Shown: one piece after another, positions 2,205 through 19,238 of the stretch
Layout of the letters: each line of letters begins with the position of its first letter
Numbering within the stretch: position 1 is the first letter of the stretch
Made by a program: the position numbers and the translations under genes
Assembly (NCBI GenBank): GCA_030611085.1
Contig: JAUWQI010000016.1
Location: forward strand, 1-33,477
Length of the DNA stretch: 33,477 nucleotides
Source: Dehalococcoidia bacterium
Lineage (GTDB): Bacteria; Chloroflexota; Dehalococcoidia; GIF9; AB-539-J10
Reading direction: 5' to 3'
Notes under the pieces: generated by a model
What the model was told of the DNA's origin: nothing
Seen by the model: only the letters and a program-made list of their open reading frames with translations
Database searches by the model: none

Positions 2205-2257
2205 TGTAGTTGCCTGATTCATCAGGCTCTTATGGCCCAATAAATTGGGCAACTACA
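2205..2257. repeat. Composite palindromic element with two inner hairpins
   Basis: TGTAGTTGCC at 2205-2214 pairs with GGCAACTACA at 2248-2257. Inside lie two perfect hairpins, GCCTGATTCATCAGGC (2212-2227) and GCCCAATAAATTGGGC (2235-2250). As RNA or single-stranded DNA it could form a three-way junction. The left arm and first hairpin recur at 4991-5012 inside the TreT-like gene, so it is a dispersed family and not a local terminator, although a run of T follows it. Confidence 0.8.
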
Positions 2258-2604: not shown

Positions 2605-4092
2605 ATGCAAGTAAGGCAAGTTTGGGGAAAGGGAAGCTTGTGCCAATTTGCGAAAGCAAGATTGTCTGATTATCTTTTTATAGTCGTCTCCAATCGCGAG
2701 CCTTATATTCATAGCTACCAGGGCGATGAAATTAAGTGTGAAGTTGCAGTTGGAGGTTTGACTACAGCCCTAGACCCGGTGTTGTCTGCTACAGGTAGCA
2801 TGTGGATAGCTCACGGTAGTGGTGATGCTGATAGAGCTACAGTGGATTCCCAGAACAAAGTGTTGGTACCACCAGAAAAGCCACTTTATACCTTGAAGCG
2901 GATTTGGTTAAGCGAGGAGGAGATAGAAGGTTATTATCATGGCTTTGCCAATCAGGCTCTTTGGCCTCTATGTCATACTGCTGACATCGAGCCTGTGTTT
3001 GACGAATCTCAATGGGATACTTACAAAAGGGTAAACGAAATCTTTGCTCAAAGTGTTTTAGAGGAGGTAAGAGAGAGAAAAGCGCTGGTCTTCATTCAAG
3101 ATTATCATCTTGCCTTGCTGCCGCGCTTAATAAAGAAAGCTAATCCAGAGCTTACTGTGGCACAATTTTGGCATATTCCCTGGCCAAGGCAAAAAGTCTT
3201 TCAAGCCTGCCCTTGGCGAGAAGAAATATTGGATGGTCTCTTAGGAAATGACCTTTTAGGCTTTCAGACAGTGCGTCACTGCCGCAACTTTCTCACCACT
3301 GTAAATAGAACCATCGCTGAATCTAAAGTTAACTATGAGAAAGCTGAGGTCACCCTGGGAGAAAAGAAAACAAAAATACACCCTTTCCCTATAAGCGTAG
3401 ACTTCGAGCAGCTCTCTGAAGAATCTCAAAGTGTGGAGGTAAAGGAAGAAACACAGAGATTGAGAAAGGAGCTAAATCTGAATGATAAATTTGTTGGGCT
3501 TAGTATCGACCGTCTGGATTATACTAAAGGGATTCCCCAAAAGCTGCTGGCTATAGACCGCTTTTTCCAGGAGCGTCCAGATTACAAGGGGAGGGTGACC
3601 TTTATACAAGTGGTAACACCCAGCCGTACACAAATCCCAAGCTATAGAAAGTTAAGAGAAGATGTAGATACATTAGCGGAAAATATAAACCTAAAACATG
3701 GCTCTGGGGATTGGAAGCCCGTAATTACTATGGTCGGACCTTTGTCTACAACCACACTGGCAGCTCTGAGAAACATGGCAGACCTATTTATAGTAAGTTC
3801 CTTGCACAATGGAATGAATCTAGTAGCCAAGGAATTTATCGCTAGCCAATGTGATAGTGAGGGCATTTTACTCCTAAGCCATTTTGCTGGAGCCGCTAAG
3901 GAACTTAATGATGCCCTGCTGATAAACCCCCATGCTATTGACCACTTCGCAGTCTCTTTCGAAAAGGCCCTGGAGATGCCCAGGATAGAGAGATATAAAC
4001 GGATGCGAAGGAAAAGAAGCATAGTTAAAGAGAATAATATCTATAAATGGGCCGCAGATATAATCGCAGAGTTAACAAAAAATGAAATGTGA
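2605..4092 (+). CDS. otsA: GT20 trehalose-6-phosphate synthase-like glycosyltransferase
   Basis: The 495-residue protein is a GT20 retaining glycosyltransferase, expected to join a nucleotide-activated glucose to glucose-6-phosphate giving trehalose-6-phosphate. S-N-R-E-P at 29-33, G-G-L at 50-52, W67, Y110/Y111, W120, Q-D-Y-H-L at 165-169, H-I-P-W-P at 190-194, D-R-L-D-Y-T-K-G-I at 302-310 and H-N-G-M-N-L-V-A-K-E at 401-410 follow the OtsA order. Two differences stand out: the usual Asp in the D-G-M-N-L sugar-donor loop is Asn402, and the usual His before D-Y-H-L is Gln165. About 20 residues precede the first conserved strand, so the true start may be slightly downstream. It heads the otsA-otsB-treT-pyrophosphorylase run. 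A related GT20 activity such as glucosylglycerol-phosphate synthase is the main alternative. Confidence 0.82.
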   Translation: MQVRQVWGKGSLCQFAKARLSDYLFIVVSNREPYIHSYQGDEIKCEVAVGGLTTALDPVLSATGSMWIAHGSGDADRATVDSQNKVLVPPEKPLYTLKRIWLSEEEIEGYYHGFANQALWPLCHTADIEPVFDESQWDTYKRVNEIFAQSVLEEVRERKALVFIQDYHLALLPRLIKKANPELTVAQFWHIPWPRQKVFQACPWREEILDGLLGNDLLGFQTVRHCRNFLTTVNRTIAESKVNYEKAEVTLGEKKTKIHPFPISVDFEQLSEESQSVEVKEETQRLRKELNLNDKFVGLSIDRLDYTKGIPQKLLAIDRFFQERPDYKGRVTFIQVVTPSRTQIPSYRKLREDVDTLAENINLKHGSGDWKPVITMVGPLSTTTLAALRNMADLFIVSSLHNGMNLVAKEFIASQCDSEGILLLSHFAGAAKELNDALLINPHAIDHFAVSFEKALEMPRIERYKRMRRKRSIVKENNIYKWAADIIAELTKNEM

Positions 4093-4104
4093 AAAGCAAA
4101 AATT

Positions 4105-4959
4105 ATGATAAATCCTAAGCACGAAATCCTAAATTCTAAACAATATCGAATGAAAGACCTCCTCTCCTGTTGGGATGAACTCGCCGTGAGGGTTAAAAGA
4201 GCCAAACATATATTGCTGCTGATTGATTATGATGGTTCGCTAACTCCTATTGTAGAGAAGCCTGAACTGGCTAACTTATCGCCGCAAGTAAAGGAGTGCT
4301 TGCAAGAACTGGCGGGAAACCCCCACATAACTTTGGGAATTATAAGCGGCCGAGCTATGGAAGATTTGCGAGAAAGGGTAGGCATCAACGGCATTATCTA
4401 TGCTGGGAACCACGGTTTGGAGATAAAAGGACCTGACATTACCTATATCAATCCTGCAGCTAAAAAAGCTGAGCCTGTCTTGCATTCCTTGTGTCAGAAT
4501 ATTGAGGAAAATATCGGGGATATCAAAGGAGCTATAATAGAAGATAAGGGTTTAACGCTAAGCTTGCACTACCGACTCGTAGATGAAGCACAAATGAGGG
4601 AGCTAAATAGGATTTTCTGTGAAGCTACCAAGCCTCTTGCCACCTCGGGAAGGATAAAAGTCGGTAAGGGGAAAAAGGTATATGAGGTAAAGCCACCGGT
4701 AGATTGGGATAAAGGTAAAGCCATAGCCCTTATAGCTCAAAACCTTAAAGGGGAAGAGCAGCCATTAATGATATTTCTTGGTGATGATGTAACGGATTAT
4801 GATGGGTTCCACTTTGTCAATGATAGTGGTGGAATTTCCATTTACGTAGGCGAGGGGAGCACTGAGTCTGTAGCTCAATACTCCCTATACTCACCGAAGG
4901 AGACATATCAATTTCTTGATATGCTGCGGGAGACCCTCAAGCCACGAACTGGTAATTGA
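4105..4959 (+). CDS. otsB: Trehalose-6-phosphate phosphatase (HAD-IIB)
   Basis: HAD motif I is D-Y-D-G-S-L-T-P at 41-48, motif II I-S-G-R at 80-83, a conserved A-G-N-H-G-L-E stretch at 100-106, a lysine in D-K-G-K-A near 202-206 and motif IV G-D-D-V-T-D at 226-231. This is the OtsB pattern; it would dephosphorylate the product of the upstream gene to trehalose. The 12-base gap from otsA indicates co-transcription. The tracked start at 4105 runs through a dispersed AATCCTAAGCAC repeat that encodes INPKHEILNSK; the ATG at 4150 (MKDLLSCWDE) leaves a normal-length protein of 269 residues and may be the real start. Mannosyl-3-phosphoglycerate phosphatase belongs to the same HAD subclass, so dual use with MpgS nearby is possible but unproven. 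Confidence 0.82.
   Translation: MINPKHEILNSKQYRMKDLLSCWDELAVRVKRAKHILLLIDYDGSLTPIVEKPELANLSPQVKECLQELAGNPHITLGIISGRAMEDLRERVGINGIIYAGNHGLEIKGPDITYINPAAKKAEPVLHSLCQNIEENIGDIKGAIIEDKGLTLSLHYRLVDEAQMRELNRIFCEATKPLATSGRIKVGKGKKVYEVKPPVDWDKGKAIALIAQNLKGEEQPLMIFLGDDVTDYDGFHFVNDSGGISIYVGEGSTESVAQYSLYSPKETYQFLDMLRETLKPRTGN
4110..4143 (+). repeat. AATCCTAAGCAC short interspersed repeat at otsB 5' end
   Basis: AATCCTAAGCAC followed by GAAATCCTAAATTCTAAACA matches, over its first 12 bases exactly and loosely beyond, the minus-strand sequence at 16990-17046 after pnp. A third, weaker copy lies at 16136-16174. It overlaps the first 13 codons of the tracked otsB frame. Confidence 0.6.
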
Positions 4960-4976
4960 TAATCTGAGGCGAAGTT

Positions 4977-6398
4977 ATGAAAAGTGAAAGTAGTTGCCCG
5001 ATTTATCGGGCTGATAAAGGTGAGACCCAGAAGAATTTTCCTCTGGAGGATGGCACGGTATATAGCCGAAGGAAAGGATTTCAACCCTTTAGCGCACCTC
5101 CTATAGAGGATTATGTTCCTATAGTGGGTGAAGAAAAGATAGAGGAGCTACGGAAGCTTGCAGCAAAACTCAAAGGGGTAAAAATACTGGAGGTTAACTC
5201 GACAGCAATGGGTGGTGGTGTAGCCGAGATGCTTTATTCCCAGGTGCCGTTTGTAAACCAGTTGGGATTAGAGGATGAGTGGAAAGTTGTACGTGGTACG
5301 GAGCCATTTTATCAGGTGACTAAAACCATTCACAACCTGTTGCAAGGTAAGAAGGGCACTCTTACCCCCGACATGATAGAGGTTTACCATCATACTCAAA
5401 GGGAGACCGCGGACATCTACCTTGAGGATCACAATAGGTATAAGCCAGATATAGAAATTGTACACGACCCGCAGCCTCTCGGCCTGGCTCAGTACTTGAA
5501 AAGACCGAATGAGAAATGGCTGTGGAGGTGCCATATTGACATAGAGGGAGACACCCTGAAAGCCAATCCTGCGTTATGGGAATTCATCACCTTTTGGGCA
5601 GATTTTTATGATGCTGTCGTCTTCTCCGGTGCTCATTATGTGGTAGAGCAATGGCCTTTACAGAAATTTATCATTCCTCCCTTCATCGACCCTCTCTCAG
5701 CAAAGAACAAGGAGTTAAGCTCTGGTGAGATTGCCAAAGTACTAGACAAGTATGGAATAGACCATAATGTCCCTTTATTGGCTCAGATAGGCAGGTTTGA
5801 CCCCTGGAAGGGAATTGATACCACTATCAAGGCATATAGAATTGCCAGGAGAGAGGTAAATTGTCAACTGGTAATAGCTGGTGGCATGGCTTCGGACGAC
5901 CCTGAAGGAGGGGCAATCTTTAACCGAATTCTTGAGGATACGAAAGAGGATGCTGATATTCATGTTATTAGCCTTCCTGAAGATGTGCAAGTTAGTGCTT
6001 TAGAGGTCAATGCATTACAACGAGCGGCAAGAATAATCCTGCAGCCCTCTATTAAGGAAGGATTTGGATTGGTTATTACCGAAGCTATGTGGAAGGGTAA
6101 GCCGGTGATAACCAGGGAAGTAGGGGCAATTCCTATTCAAGTTAGGGGTGGTGAAACTGGCTTCTTTATCACCTCCGCCAAAAAAGCAGCAACAAGGATT
6201 ATTCGCTTGTTGGAAGACTCAGATATGGCAAAATCAGTAGGGGAAAAAGCACACAGCTATGTCAAGGAACATTTTCTCATGCCTGACAGGGTGGCCGATT
6301 ACTTGAGAACTTTCGACTATTTCATCAATGACGAATTGGACAAGAACTCTATAATCAGCTATCACCCCTGGTTCAAACTTAGCAAAAGGAAAGGTTAG
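4977..6398 (+). CDS. treT: TreT-type trehalose glycosyltransferring synthase (GT4)
   Basis: The 473-residue protein matches retaining GT4 enzymes that make trehalose directly from NDP-glucose and glucose. From residue 45 it shows E-D-Y-V-P-I-V-G, then L-E-V-N-S-T-A-M-G-G-G-V-A-E-M at 71-85, the donor-site segment G-R-F-D-P-W-K-G-I in the C-terminal Rossmann domain, and E-G-F-G-L-V-I-T-E-A-M with the expected acidic pair. TreT homologues usually begin close to E-D-Y-V-P, so about 40 residues are extra. Codons 6-12 (S-C-P-I-Y-R-A) are encoded by a hairpin repeat at 4991-5012. No in-frame ATG or TTG lies between the tracked start and the conserved core, and the first GTG would cut into it, so translation through the repeat is likely. 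It gives the cell a second trehalose route beside OtsAB. Confidence 0.82.
   Translation: MKSESSCPIYRADKGETQKNFPLEDGTVYSRRKGFQPFSAPPIEDYVPIVGEEKIEELRKLAAKLKGVKILEVNSTAMGGGVAEMLYSQVPFVNQLGLEDEWKVVRGTEPFYQVTKTIHNLLQGKKGTLTPDMIEVYHHTQRETADIYLEDHNRYKPDIEIVHDPQPLGLAQYLKRPNEKWLWRCHIDIEGDTLKANPALWEFITFWADFYDAVVFSGAHYVVEQWPLQKFIIPPFIDPLSAKNKELSSGEIAKVLDKYGIDHNVPLLAQIGRFDPWKGIDTTIKAYRIARREVNCQLVIAGGMASDDPEGGAIFNRILEDTKEDADIHVISLPEDVQVSALEVNALQRAARIILQPSIKEGFGLVITEAMWKGKPVITREVGAIPIQVRGGETGFFITSAKKAATRIIRLLEDSDMAKSVGEKAHSYVKEHFLMPDRVADYLRTFDYFINDELDKNSIISYHPWFKLSKRKG
4991..5012 (+). repeat. Half copy of the composite palindrome, inside treT
   Basis: TAGTTGCCCGATTTATCGGGC carries the left arm and first hairpin (GCCCGA-TTTA-TCGGGC) of the element at 2205-2257; the second hairpin and closing arm are absent. 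It lies in frame near the start of the TreT-like coding sequence. Confidence 0.75.
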
Positions 6399-6415
6399 TT
6401 TAGCCACCATCGGAA

Positions 6416-7498
6416 ATGAAAGCTATTATTCTAGCTGGTGGAAAGGGGACCAGGTTACGTCCTCTTAGCTGCAACACAAATAAGGTAATGGTGCCTTTAT
6501 TAAATCGCCCTTTCCTCGATCACATTATTTGTTACATCAGAAAACATAACATCTGCGAAATTATCCTCACACTGGGTTATCTGCCAGAGCAAATCCAAAG
6601 CTATTTTGGTGATGGTAGCAAGTTTGGTGTGAAGATAACTTACCTCGTGGAAGAGTTCCCTTTAGGATCTGCAGGAGCGGCTAAAAATGCTGAGGGGCTT
6701 TTGAATGACTCCTTTATTGTTCTCAACGGCGATATTTTTACAGACTTTAATTTAACCGACATGATGGCTCAGCACCGCGACGGAAACGCCATTGCAACCA
6801 TGGCATTGACCTCCGTGGATAATCCCACTATTTATGGAGTGGTGGAAACAGATAGTCAAGGCAAGGTTACATGCTTCAAAGAAAAACCAGGGTGGGATGA
6901 GATAACCACCAATATGATTAACGCTGGCATTTATATTCTGGAACCCGAAATCTTAAGCTACATTCCCTCTAACAAATTCTTTACCTTTGAACGCGATATC
7001 TTCCCTGCTTTCATGGGAAAGGGACAAGTTATTTATGGCTATCCATTTGAGGCTTATTGGACTGACGTAGGTACTCCAGAGTTATACTTAAAATTACATC
7101 ACGACTTGCTCAACCGTCTTGATAAGAGCATAAAATTCGAGGGTGAAAGTTCTGTTCATCCTTCAGCCCAAATCGAAGGACCCGCGGTATTTGGTAAAAA
7201 TTGCTTTATAGGCAAAAACGTTGTGATAAAAGGTCCTGCTGCTCTAGGTCCAGAATGTCGCATAGAAGAAGGTGCTAGCATAGAAGGAGCAATCTTGTGG
7301 CAAAAGAGCAAAGTTGGTAGAGGAGCTAAGCTTAAAAACTGCATAGTTGCCTCTAATTGTTATATTGCTGAGAAAAGCGAAGTTTTAGATGACTGCGTTT
7401 TAGGCAATGGTGTTGTAATCGAGGAGGGAAATACACTAGCTCAAGGTATCAGGATTTGGCCAGGTAAATCTATCGGGGCCAATGCGGTTTCATTCTGA
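6416..7498 (+). CDS. Sugar-1-phosphate nucleotidyltransferase with C-terminal left-handed beta-helix
   Basis: The first 230 or so residues form a nucleotidyltransferase domain: L-A-G-G-K-G-T-R-L-R-P-L at 6-17 binds the nucleotide, N-G-D-I-F holds a metal-binding Asp, and E-K-P followed by N-A-G-I-Y completes the pocket. From about residue 240 hexapeptide repeats (V-H-P-S-A-Q-I-E-G-P-A-V-F-G and further turns) form a left-handed beta-helix. It would make an NDP-sugar, most likely the glucose donor for the trehalose enzymes or GDP-mannose for MpgS, which faces it 17 bases away. Sequence alone does not separate glucose from mannose or the base used. The 17-base gap from treT places it last in the trehalose run. 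Confidence 0.82.
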   Translation: MKAIILAGGKGTRLRPLSCNTNKVMVPLLNRPFLDHIICYIRKHNICEIILTLGYLPEQIQSYFGDGSKFGVKITYLVEEFPLGSAGAAKNAEGLLNDSFIVLNGDIFTDFNLTDMMAQHRDGNAIATMALTSVDNPTIYGVVETDSQGKVTCFKEKPGWDEITTNMINAGIYILEPEILSYIPSNKFFTFERDIFPAFMGKGQVIYGYPFEAYWTDVGTPELYLKLHHDLLNRLDKSIKFEGESSVHPSAQIEGPAVFGKNCFIGKNVVIKGPAALGPECRIEEGASIEGAILWQKSKVGRGAKLKNCIVASNCYIAEKSEVLDDCVLGNGVVIEEGNTLAQGIRIWPGKSIGANAVSF

Positions 7499-7515
7499 AG
7501 CATTCTCCTTGGAAT

Positions 7516-8703
7516 CTAGCGTAACACGTAATATTTATCCAAGTCCCTTTGTATGGCAGTTATAAACTTGCTGGCAATTACCTTCTTCGGCGGAGCATTA
7601 ATGTGAATCGGAGGAGGCGTCTCTTCTCCTTTGAGAGCCCCTTGATGGACTAATTCAGCTAAAATTGCTTGTTTTGCTTCCTCTCCACAAAGACGCGAGT
7701 GATAAATAGTGCCCAGTGCTGATAATAACATGGCCTGAAGGTGCTCATCCCCTTTTTCCTCATGCAGGTGAGGGTTTCTAGTCTCAACTTGGAATATATC
7801 TATCCCTTGCTCCATCACCTTTATATTCTTTGTGGGCAAGATGCCACCAAAATCTTCAAATATAGATACCAACTCCTGAGGTTCTACAGCATATCCTGAG
7901 GCGTAGGGTAAAATCTCCGCCAACTTCATACTCATGGCATGCTCTCCAGCATTACCCGTTCTTACAACTTCGGTTTCAAACCCTGTTTTGGAGGATATTA
8001 AGTTGTTCAAGTGCTTGTTGGTGATCTCCGACACCCTTCCCCATTTCCTAAAATATAGCCCGCCTGAAATTTTGGGCTTGTAATGCCATAGTATCCTCAC
8101 CATACTATAAGGAGATTGAGCCAGGCTAAAGCCGGCAGCGTAATTCCTCACATACTCCAGCACTGCGCCAGGAAAGTAATTATCAGCGTCAACGAAACCG
8201 ATATACTCCTTCCCCGCTGCCTTGGCCAGAAGCAACCCTATTACCATGGCTTCGCTCTTACCATCACGCACCAATCCATCTTCGCCTAAGAGGTCATCAT
8301 AACCAGCCTCCACCATAGCTTCAGCAATAGCAGGGTCTCTCTGGTGAGCAATCAACGCCTGGCGAAAGGTAAAACGGCAAAGTTGGTCTAAGGCATCTCC
8401 CTCCATTCTAAACCGGTCAACTTTTTCCCTTTGGCTATTGGAAACCACGATTACCAAACAGTCATGCGGCACGCCACTAACCACTCCTTCAAAAAGCTTG
8501 AGCTTCTCATCTTTAACCGGAATGACAATCGCCATCCTGTCCTCAAAGTACTTGATTGTCTCCTCATCTATTTTCACTACCCCCATGGCACCGTGAGGAG
8601 GCAGCTTGCTCTTTACTCCTGAATCTAGAGATATCACCCTCTGTACATGATTCATTCTGACGGAACCGAAACGTTCCGTATATCTGGGACTCTCAATAAA
8701 CAT
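7516..8703 (-). CDS. mpgS: Mannosyl-3-phosphoglycerate synthase (GT55)
   Basis: The 395-residue protein reads like MpgS throughout: I-V-I-P-V-K-D-E-K at the nucleotide-binding start, V-V-S-N-S-Q-R-E-K, the metal-binding D-A-D in G-F-V-D-A-D-N-Y-F-P-G-A, and a C-terminal H-S-R-L segment. It transfers mannose from GDP-mannose to 3-phosphoglycerate, the first step to mannosylglycerate, a compatible solute. In Dehalococcoides the synthase is fused to a C-terminal HAD phosphatase; this protein stops after the synthase and no MpgP-like gene is next to it. A clear AGGTGAG precedes the ATG, and a promoter lies upstream. It converges on the pyrophosphorylase gene, which may supply its donor. Confidence 0.88.
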   Translation of the reverse strand: MFIESPRYTERFGSVRMNHVQRVISLDSGVKSKLPPHGAMGVVKIDEETIKYFEDRMAIVIPVKDEKLKLFEGVVSGVPHDCLVIVVSNSQREKVDRFRMEGDALDQLCRFTFRQALIAHQRDPAIAEAMVEAGYDDLLGEDGLVRDGKSEAMVIGLLLAKAAGKEYIGFVDADNYFPGAVLEYVRNYAAGFSLAQSPYSMVRILWHYKPKISGGLYFRKWGRVSEITNKHLNNLISSKTGFETEVVRTGNAGEHAMSMKLAEILPYASGYAVEPQELVSIFEDFGGILPTKNIKVMEQGIDIFQVETRNPHLHEEKGDEHLQAMLLSALGTIYHSRLCGEEAKQAILAELVHQGALKGEETPPPIHINAPPKKVIASKFITAIQRDLDKYYVLR

Positions 8704-17046: not shown

Positions 17047-19238
17047 CTCCTGTCTGGATGTGTAAATTTTTGCCTCCGTGTTCCTTCGTTGCGATCAGGA
17101 GGACCTAAAGAATCTTTCTCCCTAGCACCAGGCAGGCGAGAAAGTCCTTCGAATACTGCTTTACGCGATAAGTTTATTCTGCCCATGTTGTCAACTCCAA
17201 TGACTTTTACCGTTACCTCGTCGCCAACTTTAACCACATCTTCAATCCTGACCACATGGTAATCAGCCAGTTCGCTGATATGAACTAAGCCTTCCTTCCC
17301 CGGCAAGATTTCCACCATTGCTCCAAAATTTAACAGCCTAGTTACCTTTCCTGTATAAATATCCCCTGACTTCGCCTCTTCGGTCAAGCCCTCTATCATT
17401 TTGATTGCTTTTTGGGCTGCTTCTTCACTTGAAGAGCCAATGAGCACAGTGCCATCATTCTTTATATCTATACTTGCTTTGGTTTCATCTATGATAGACC
17501 TTATAGTTCTACCTCCAGGGCCAATCACAATACCAATTTTGCTAGTATCAATAGTTATCTCATACATTCTGGGAGCGTAGGGACTAAGTTCAGGACGATT
17601 GACACTAATAGTTTGCCTCATCTTGTCCAATATCTCCAAGCGAGCCTGACGAGCTTGATTTAGTGACTCGCCCAAAATTTTATAATCTACGCCCTTAATT
17701 TTAATGTCCATCTGTAAAGCGGTAATTCCTTGAGCTGTGCCAGCAACCTTGAAATCCATGTCACCATAGGCATCTTCTATACCCTCGATGTCGGTTAAGA
17801 TGACATAGTCCCCATTTTCCCCAGTAACCAAACCCATAGCTATTCCTGCTACAGATGTCCTAATAGGTACACCAGCATCCATTAAGGAGAGCGTTGAACC
17901 GCAAACACTTGCCATAGATGTGCTTCCACTGGAACTAATGACCTCAGAGACTAAGCGAATAGTATAAGGAAAGTCCTCTTCCTTGGGTAATATTGGTGCG
18001 ATAGCTCGTTCCGCTAAAGCACCATGCCCAATTTCTCGCCTTCTTGGTGTTCCTATCCGCCTCACCTCCCCAGTAGAAAAAGGAGGAAAATTATAATGAT
18101 GCATAAAGCGTTTAGTTTCCTCTATCCCTATGCTATCCAGTAACTGTTCTTTACCTAGAGAGCCTAGAGTAGCAATAGTTAATACTTGAGTTTGCCCTCG
18201 AATAAACAGCCCTGAGCCATGGGTGTGAGGCAAAAGACCAACCTCACTACTAATAGGACGAATTTCTTTAGCTGGGCGACCGTCCAGATGCTGCTTTTTT
18301 TGCAAAATCTTTTTCCTCACGGCCGCTCTAAGTTGGCTTTCAAAAACAGAACGGATTTCAACTTCGGGAACTTCATCACCTAACCTTTCCACTACTTCTT
18401 TCTTGATTGATGCTAGTGCTTGTTCTCGCTCTGATTTTTCATGCTGCTCTAGTGCCTCATCAAGTTTATCCACAAATGCAGATGTCTGATTTATCAGGCT
18501 TTTGGAAATGACATCCGAAAGTTCAGGATTAACCCCACCAGTTCCTATTTCCATCTTAGATTTGCCATAATCCTGCCTTAACCTTTCTTGAAGCATAATA
18601 ATTTCCTGATTTGCCTCGTGTCCCAATTTAATCGCTTCTAGTATTAGTTCCTCAGAAGCTTCTTTGGCACCCGCTTCTACCATCACTATAGCTTGCTTTG
18701 TGCTAACAACAACTACATCAAGCAAGCTGTTTTCTATTTGAGGTAAGATAGGATTCAAAACGAAACTATCATTTATGTAACCAACATGCACTGCAGATAT
18801 AGGACCCAAAAACGGAATATCCGATAATGTTAAAGCCGTCGAAGCGCCAACAAGAGCACAAATATCGGGGTCGTTCTCCTGATCGGCAGAGAGCACTGTA
18901 GCCATAACTTGGATATCATGATTAAATCCCTTAGGAAAAAGGGGACGCAAAGATCGATCAATAAGCCGACTGGTTAGAATTGCTTCTTCGGTAGGACGTC
19001 CTTCTCGTCTAAAGAAGCTGCCCGGTATCTTGCCCGCAGCATAGAGCCTCTCTTCATAATCCACTGTTAGAGGCAGGAAATCTATTCCCTCTCGAGGCTC
19101 AGGGCTAGCGCAGGCAGTAACTAAAACCACTGTATCCCCATAATGGACAATAGCTGTACCATTGGCTTGCTGAGCAAGTTTTCCTATCTCAACACTAAGC
19201 ACCCTACCAGCTATTGAATGCTCAAAACCATCAGCCAT
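17031..19238 (-). CDS. pnp: Polynucleotide phosphorylase
   Basis: The 735-residue exoribonuclease degrades RNA 3' to 5' using phosphate. Two RNase PH-like domains are present: the first with S-F-F-R-R-E-G-R-P-T-E and the second, the catalytic one, with F-P-P-F-S-T-G-E-V and the S-S-S-T-S-M-A-type G-S-T-S-M-A-S-V-C-G-S. A KH domain (I-G-I-V-I-G-P-G-G-R-T-I-R-S-I-I) and an S1 domain (G-D-I-Y-T-G-K-V-T-R-L-L-N-F-G-A-M) follow. It starts one base after the rpsO stop, a classical gene pair in which pnp expression depends on the rpsO transcript. The last residues R-N-P-K-H are encoded by a dispersed repeat. Confidence 0.97.
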   Translation of the reverse strand: MADGFEHSIAGRVLSVEIGKLAQQANGTAIVHYGDTVVLVTACASPEPREGIDFLPLTVDYEERLYAAGKIPGSFFRREGRPTEEAILTSRLIDRSLRPLFPKGFNHDIQVMATVLSADQENDPDICALVGASTALTLSDIPFLGPISAVHVGYINDSFVLNPILPQIENSLLDVVVVSTKQAIVMVEAGAKEASEELILEAIKLGHEANQEIIMLQERLRQDYGKSKMEIGTGGVNPELSDVISKSLINQTSAFVDKLDEALEQHEKSEREQALASIKKEVVERLGDEVPEVEIRSVFESQLRAAVRKKILQKKQHLDGRPAKEIRPISSEVGLLPHTHGSGLFIRGQTQVLTIATLGSLGKEQLLDSIGIEETKRFMHHYNFPPFSTGEVRRIGTPRRREIGHGALAERAIAPILPKEEDFPYTIRLVSEVISSSGSTSMASVCGSTLSLMDAGVPIRTSVAGIAMGLVTGENGDYVILTDIEGIEDAYGDMDFKVAGTAQGITALQMDIKIKGVDYKILGESLNQARQARLEILDKMRQTISVNRPELSPYAPRMYEITIDTSKIGIVIGPGGRTIRSIIDETKASIDIKNDGTVLIGSSSEEAAQKAIKMIEGLTEEAKSGDIYTGKVTRLLNFGAMVEILPGKEGLVHISELADYHVVRIEDVVKVGDEVTVKVIGVDNMGRINLSRKAVFEGLSRLPGAREKDSLGPPDRNEGTRRQKFTHPDRRNPKH

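Follow-up and report, generated by a model that had tools for sequence, protein, structure and literature searches.

A TreT-like gene and its leader

The window analysed here (the whole stretch of 33,477 nt of contig JAUWQI010000016.1, from a Dehalococcoidia bacterium) contains a TreT-like trehalose synthase ORF with a short palindromic repeat among its first codons (Table 1). At 2605-8703, OtsA, OtsB and the TreT-like gene lie in a row, followed by a nucleotidyltransferase and a mannosyl-3-phosphoglycerate synthase, an arrangement in which several compatible-solute routes are adjacent. The TreT-like ORF matches the profiles PF21269 (E=1e-44) and PF00534 (E=5e-25), and so possesses both a TreT_GT1 and a GT1 C-terminal domain; its score against NCBIfam TreT_Thcocales is 375.8 bits, below the cut-off of 775, and we therefore call the gene TreT-like. 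The TreT_GT1 domain is held in common with the Thermococcales enzymes (PDB 2x6q, 6zj4), from which the window protein differs in two respects, a C-terminal tail and an N-terminal extension that is specific to its family and about 40 residues long. PDB 2x6q aligns from residue 42 of the query, and the alignment of the core spans about 400 residues.

Table 1 Positions of the features discussed in the text (window coordinates unless a locus is named)
Feature	Position	Strand	Remarks
Intergenic head-to-head REP pair (the 53-base element of the first-pass annotation)	2206..2256	+	GTAG tags outside
TreT-like trehalose synthase ORF, 473 aa, REP in leader	4977..6398	+	GT4, Pfam TreT_GT1 PF21269
Start codon and MKSE, likely true start	4977..4988	+	Common to L059; GAGG motif a few nt upstream
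Single REP unit within the treT-like ORF	4990..5011	+	GTAGTTGCCCGATTTATCGGGC; encodes residues 5-12 (SSCPIYRA)
Parts of this unit: GTAG tag, TT, stem GCCCGA/TCGGGC, loop TTTA	tag 4990-4993; stem 4996-5001 / 5006-5011		
Extension just 3' of the unit, TGATAAAG	5012..5019	+	Tail common to four single units
Family-conserved N-terminal extension, FPLEDGTVYSRRKGFQPFSAPPIEDYVPI	5037..5123	+	Protein-level constraint, confident fold
RadA ORF with in-frame REP	L182:170-1618	-	G000:C20
TsaD ORF with in-frame REP	L164:1108-2124	+	G000:C27
SelB ORF with in-frame REP	L172:2771-4696	+	G000:C13

A first-pass annotation of this DNA supposed that TreT homologues begin near EDYVP, which is true of distant archaeal TreT such as 2x6q; members of the same family, however, start about 20 residues before PLxDGTVYSRRKG, close to where the window protein itself starts. 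In family homologues the leader is variable and roughly 20 residues long, and the conserved stretch PLxDGTVYSRRKG...EDYVP follows it. The leaders of the nearest sequences read MKSETKKLFEGEVRWELPLQDG (L059), MENEIKKLVKGKVKGKLPLENG (L064) and MVKEELKREFPLQNG (L032), and that of the window protein MKSESSCPIYRADKGETQKNFPLEDG. Compared with the nearest of these (L059), the window DNA has 12 additional nt; these fall within the palindrome, and the sequence to either side of it can still be aligned, the ATG and MKSE included. Within the variable leader about 15 nt are exchanged for 27 nt, i.e. about five codons for nine, a net gain of four residues. This reading of the pre-insertion leader draws on homologues about 75% identical, all of them from outside the genus, a point that weighs against the explanation favoured below. 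None of the family homologues inspected has the repeat or its residues in TreT, and three near genomes with TreT matches (G016, G018 and G020) hold 0, 0 and 1 copies of the repeat in total. Alignment with the TreT proteins of relatives, which the first-pass annotation had proposed as a check, finds close relatives lacking both residues and repeat at this site.

A GTAG-tagged REP family

The TreT unit is 22 nt long and folds as DNA into a hairpin (stem 6 bp, loop 4 nt), the form taken by each unit of the family, which places it among the short palindromes (20-40 nt, stem of 5-13 bp) typical of GTAG REP elements; the z-score of the hairpin, as single-stranded DNA, is -4.2. It had been claimed that the 22 bases at 4991-5012 match an arm of the intergenic element, and they do: TAGTTGCCCGATTTATCGGGCT is identical to TAGTTGCCTGATTCATCAGGCT (2207-2228) at 19 of 22 positions, and of the three differences one lies in the loop while the other two compensate each other in the stem, turning a T-A pair into C-G. 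The term "half-element" used at that time is better replaced by single REP unit; in the 53-base element two such units are paired head to head, and this pair folds (as DNA) into two stem-loops on a common stem.

Could the sequence at 4990-5011 owe its form to chance or convergence instead of copying? The leader is hypervariable and its sequence little constrained, which would leave some room for such an origin. However, four arm matches with up to 3 mismatches occur in the window (two being the arms of the 2206-2256 element, one at 4991-5011 and one at 18479 with 3 mismatches), against 0.01 expected from shuffles, and the match at the TreT site runs on through the GTAG and through the TNATAAAG tail common to three other copies. 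A search of the whole genome with the arm returned 135 matches (68 forward, 67 reverse), compared with 0 for a reversed-pattern control. Shuffles, copy number and genome counts together rule out a chance match, and we consider the probability of this origin to be practically nil.

Reading of the stretches around the listed repeat copies, from which all our unit and pair counts derive, resolves the copies in this genome into about 130 units, arranged as 52 inverted head-to-head pairs and 26 singles. GTAG, unpaired, precedes the hairpin in 118 of the 130 units, the TreT copy included, and only 4 units lie within genuine genes. High copy number, a mostly intergenic location and inverted pairing are thus all present, and on sequence grounds the repeat is a GTAG-tagged REP family, with the defining features of such elements and of their head-to-head pairs. 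A search of a plasmid collection gave no match. A second dispersed family of repeats is represented in the window at 2372-2458 by an inverted-repeat element (TTGTCATTCTGAG ... CTCAGAATGACA), with about ten copies in the stretches read.

Protein similarity searches yielded relatives of which the named ones are Dehalococcoidia MAGs, and the REP family is present in 29 of 52 family genomes (the window's own included), being frequent in genera g1-g4 and sporadic in g13. The stem variant of the TreT unit (CCCGA/TCGGG) is unique in its own genome, which we count against the explanation favoured below, though the exact form occurs in the relatives G032 (twice) and G038 (once). The tail TTATAAAG (in TreT, TGATAAAG) follows four single units, namely those in TreT and radA, one upstream of secD and one at C8:16255; it occurs at no other unit of this genome, and at one place only in the rest of the family (allowing up to 2 mismatches). 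The TreT and RadA copies match over about 35 nt (AAGTAGTTGCCCRATTTATYGGGCTKATAAAGGTGAGA).

Several further candidates for units in genes were set aside. The matches at 18479 (in a pnp-like ORF), in SecD (L181:1369, GSYLVYQAD) and in L016 (3-4 mismatches) are taken as chance resemblances owing to their poor agreement with the consensus; the SecD region around this match is presumably conserved. A REP-derived TAG as the end of pdxS upstream of pdxT (L005) was also dropped, the upstream frame being only 54 codons long and unrecognisable.

RAYT transposases are the most likely movers of the family, as we infer from its relatives. RAYT-like genes lie beside the same REPs in G005 (L312, NF047646 E=4e-14, cut by the contig end) and in G032 (L311, frameshifted); the two are about 71% identical, and each is flanked by pairs of exactly this REP (a REPtron), while other RAYTs of the family adjoin other GTAG hairpins. 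In the window's own genome, which is 83% complete, searches with PF01797, NF047646 and the G005 protein found no intact RAYT: there is no PF01797 match, and the one weak NF047646 match contains stops and has no REP beside it. We count this, too, against the favoured explanation.

Probable translation through the repeat

The repeat lies in frame ahead of the conserved core, as the first-pass annotation had stated, and the frame through it reads MKSE-SSCPIYRA-DKGE.... Many N-terminal REPs may reflect misannotated starts, a warning given by Di Nocera et al. (PMC3733652), and the TreT unit might accordingly be an untranslated 5' hairpin, with the protein starting downstream at a non-standard codon and the long ORF misannotated. 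Closer inspection does often place N-terminal REPs outside the gene (PMC3733652); in addition, AAAGGTGAG at 5016-5024 looks like a ribosome-binding site, and the same AAAGGTGAGA lies downstream of the radA copy. Several observations argue the other way. The earlier claim that no downstream ATG or TTG could bypass the repeat stands and extends to GTG: no ATG, GTG or TTG is in frame between 4980 and 5123, the first after 4977 being a GTG at 5124, within the conserved core, and the only near-cognate codon between the REP and the conserved block is a CTG at 5043. Moreover, the upstream ATG and MKSE are kept in L059, which has no REP.

The block that follows the repeat shows constraint at the protein level. 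Compared with L059, residues 25-48 have a pS of 0.45 and a pN of 0.08, and pS is the higher of the two in each of the 11 comparisons. In a TreT-like structure model (28 sequences, mean pLDDT 87.7) pLDDT is 31-36 for residues 1-20 (stated as below 50 for residues 1-18), while residues 21-70, which include a strand at 27-30, have block means of 89-97. Since a constrained and confidently folded block follows the REP, and no standard start codon separates the two, translation must begin ahead of the REP or inside it. The one standard start in that stretch is the ATG at 4977, which follows a GAGG motif and is kept in relatives. Judged from the sequence, it is therefore very likely that the REP in TreT is translated, and a downstream start is improbable. 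The objection of a misannotated start appears largely excluded by sequence alone, making the TreT case stronger than is usual for N-terminal REPs. The idea that the N-terminus as a whole was built from repeat DNA has to be narrowed to residues 5-12: residues 21-48 are family-conserved and folded, and the ATG and MKSE are common to L059.

Probable origin of the insert and other in-frame copies

Single REP units lie in frame in four genes of this genome, those for TreT, RadA, TsaD and SelB, all with intact ORFs identified by Pfam/NCBIfam. The RadA protein starts LGLVNPSSCPIYWAYKGE, with an N-terminal REP-encoded SSCPIYWA in the same frame as in TreT. In TsaD the REP encodes CSCPIHWAN in a variable loop between HLEGHIYANW and FPCLCLIISGGH, and TsaD of the nearest relative, G001, has no such insert; in SelB it encodes VVAQFIG in a linker of the C-terminal region. 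Inserts are absent at the same sites in relatives for all four proteins, the SelB comparison being weaker, at about 55% identity. SelB also has a lineage-specific insert of about 27 residues (531-558) built from degenerate AGTCAGC repeats, and in the relative G001 (L277, G001:C50) an HdrD-like iron-sulfur protein ends in residues, GLINQATT, that a REP encodes.

Among ORFs of at least 120 residues, 4 of the 26 singles lie inside, as against none of the 52 pairs (Fisher p=0.010). The explanation that pairs are kept out of genes because their stop codons shut all frames proved too simple, since most pairs leave 2-3 of the 6 frames open; singles mostly leave 3-4.

An alternative to insertion is that an upstream start codon captured an intergenic REP, i.e. 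that the ORF grew into the repeat. This suits radA better, where many relatives use a TTG-initiated leader (e.g. LKSNERGKSK), the leader upstream of the unit is unlike that of relatives, and the copy is immediately preceded by a second, degenerate arm. In TreT, by contrast, the ATG and the first residues, which lie 5' of the REP, align with REP-less homologues, and the REP thus sits within a pre-existing leader; for this gene we hold growth of the ORF to be very improbable.

It is highly probable, in our assessment, that a GTAG REP unit, most likely mobilised by RAYT, landed in the disordered leader of TreT, kept the frame, was translated as SSCPIYRA from the ancestral ATG at 4977, and has been tolerated. 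Under this explanation the family would have spread through the Dehalococcoidia-like lineage, most likely moved by RAYT, and one unit would have reached the leader either through a single-strand event that depends on RAYT or by recombining with another copy. The insertion would have removed about 15 nt, with the frame kept by selection, and SSCPIYRA would have been translated from the ancestral ATG from then on. The insert may persist because the leader tolerates almost any sequence, the added residues being near-neutral; more generally, inserts would survive where they are harmless, as in the disordered tail of TreT, the leader of RadA, the variable loop of TsaD and the linker of SelB. Alternatively, one REP subfamily of single units, marked by the TTATAAAGGTGAG tail, may have given the near-identical SSCPIYxAxKGE to the N-termini of two unrelated proteins, TreT and RadA, and the insertions may have a function, for example as a translation-tuning mRNA hairpin or as an N-terminal tag common to both proteins, instead of merely being tolerated. 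We think this quite improbable. A regulatory role for an mRNA hairpin just past the TreT start is possible.

Systems of GTAG-tagged REP elements, BIMEs and REPINs with RAYT have been described previously (Nunvar 2010, PMC2817692; Di Nocera 2013, PMC3733652; PMC8266576). Ours resembles them in its GTAG tag, short stem-loop, high copy number and mostly intergenic location, in the predominance of head-to-head pairs, in RAYTs flanked by cognate REPs in relatives, and in occasional single units within ORFs; it differs in sequence (TTGCC[C/T][A/G]ATTTAT...), in host lineage, and in that no intact RAYT was found in its own genome. This GTAG REP family of uncultivated Dehalococcoidia-like Chloroflexota is apparently undescribed, an assessment that leaves aside the consensus sequences of the 24 published GTAG families.

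In-frame REPs are themselves already known from the Rickettsia RPEs (Di Nocera et al. 2013, PMC3733652), and the TreT case is a further example. As in Rickettsia, palindromic repeats lie in frame in protein-coding genes and are probably translated. However, RPE-4 and RPE-6 are CGTC-tagged, and over half of the surveyed intragenic inserts consist of paired or grouped repeats that encode 20-30 residues (PMC3733652), whereas here the tag is GTAG and the inserts are single units of about 7-9 residues, in 4 genes. Starts of the kind seen in TreT should not be trimmed automatically in genome annotation. The in-frame REPs of trehalose synthase, RadA, TsaD and SelB, all in one small genome, suggest that mobile hairpins can make short protein segments in flexible regions.
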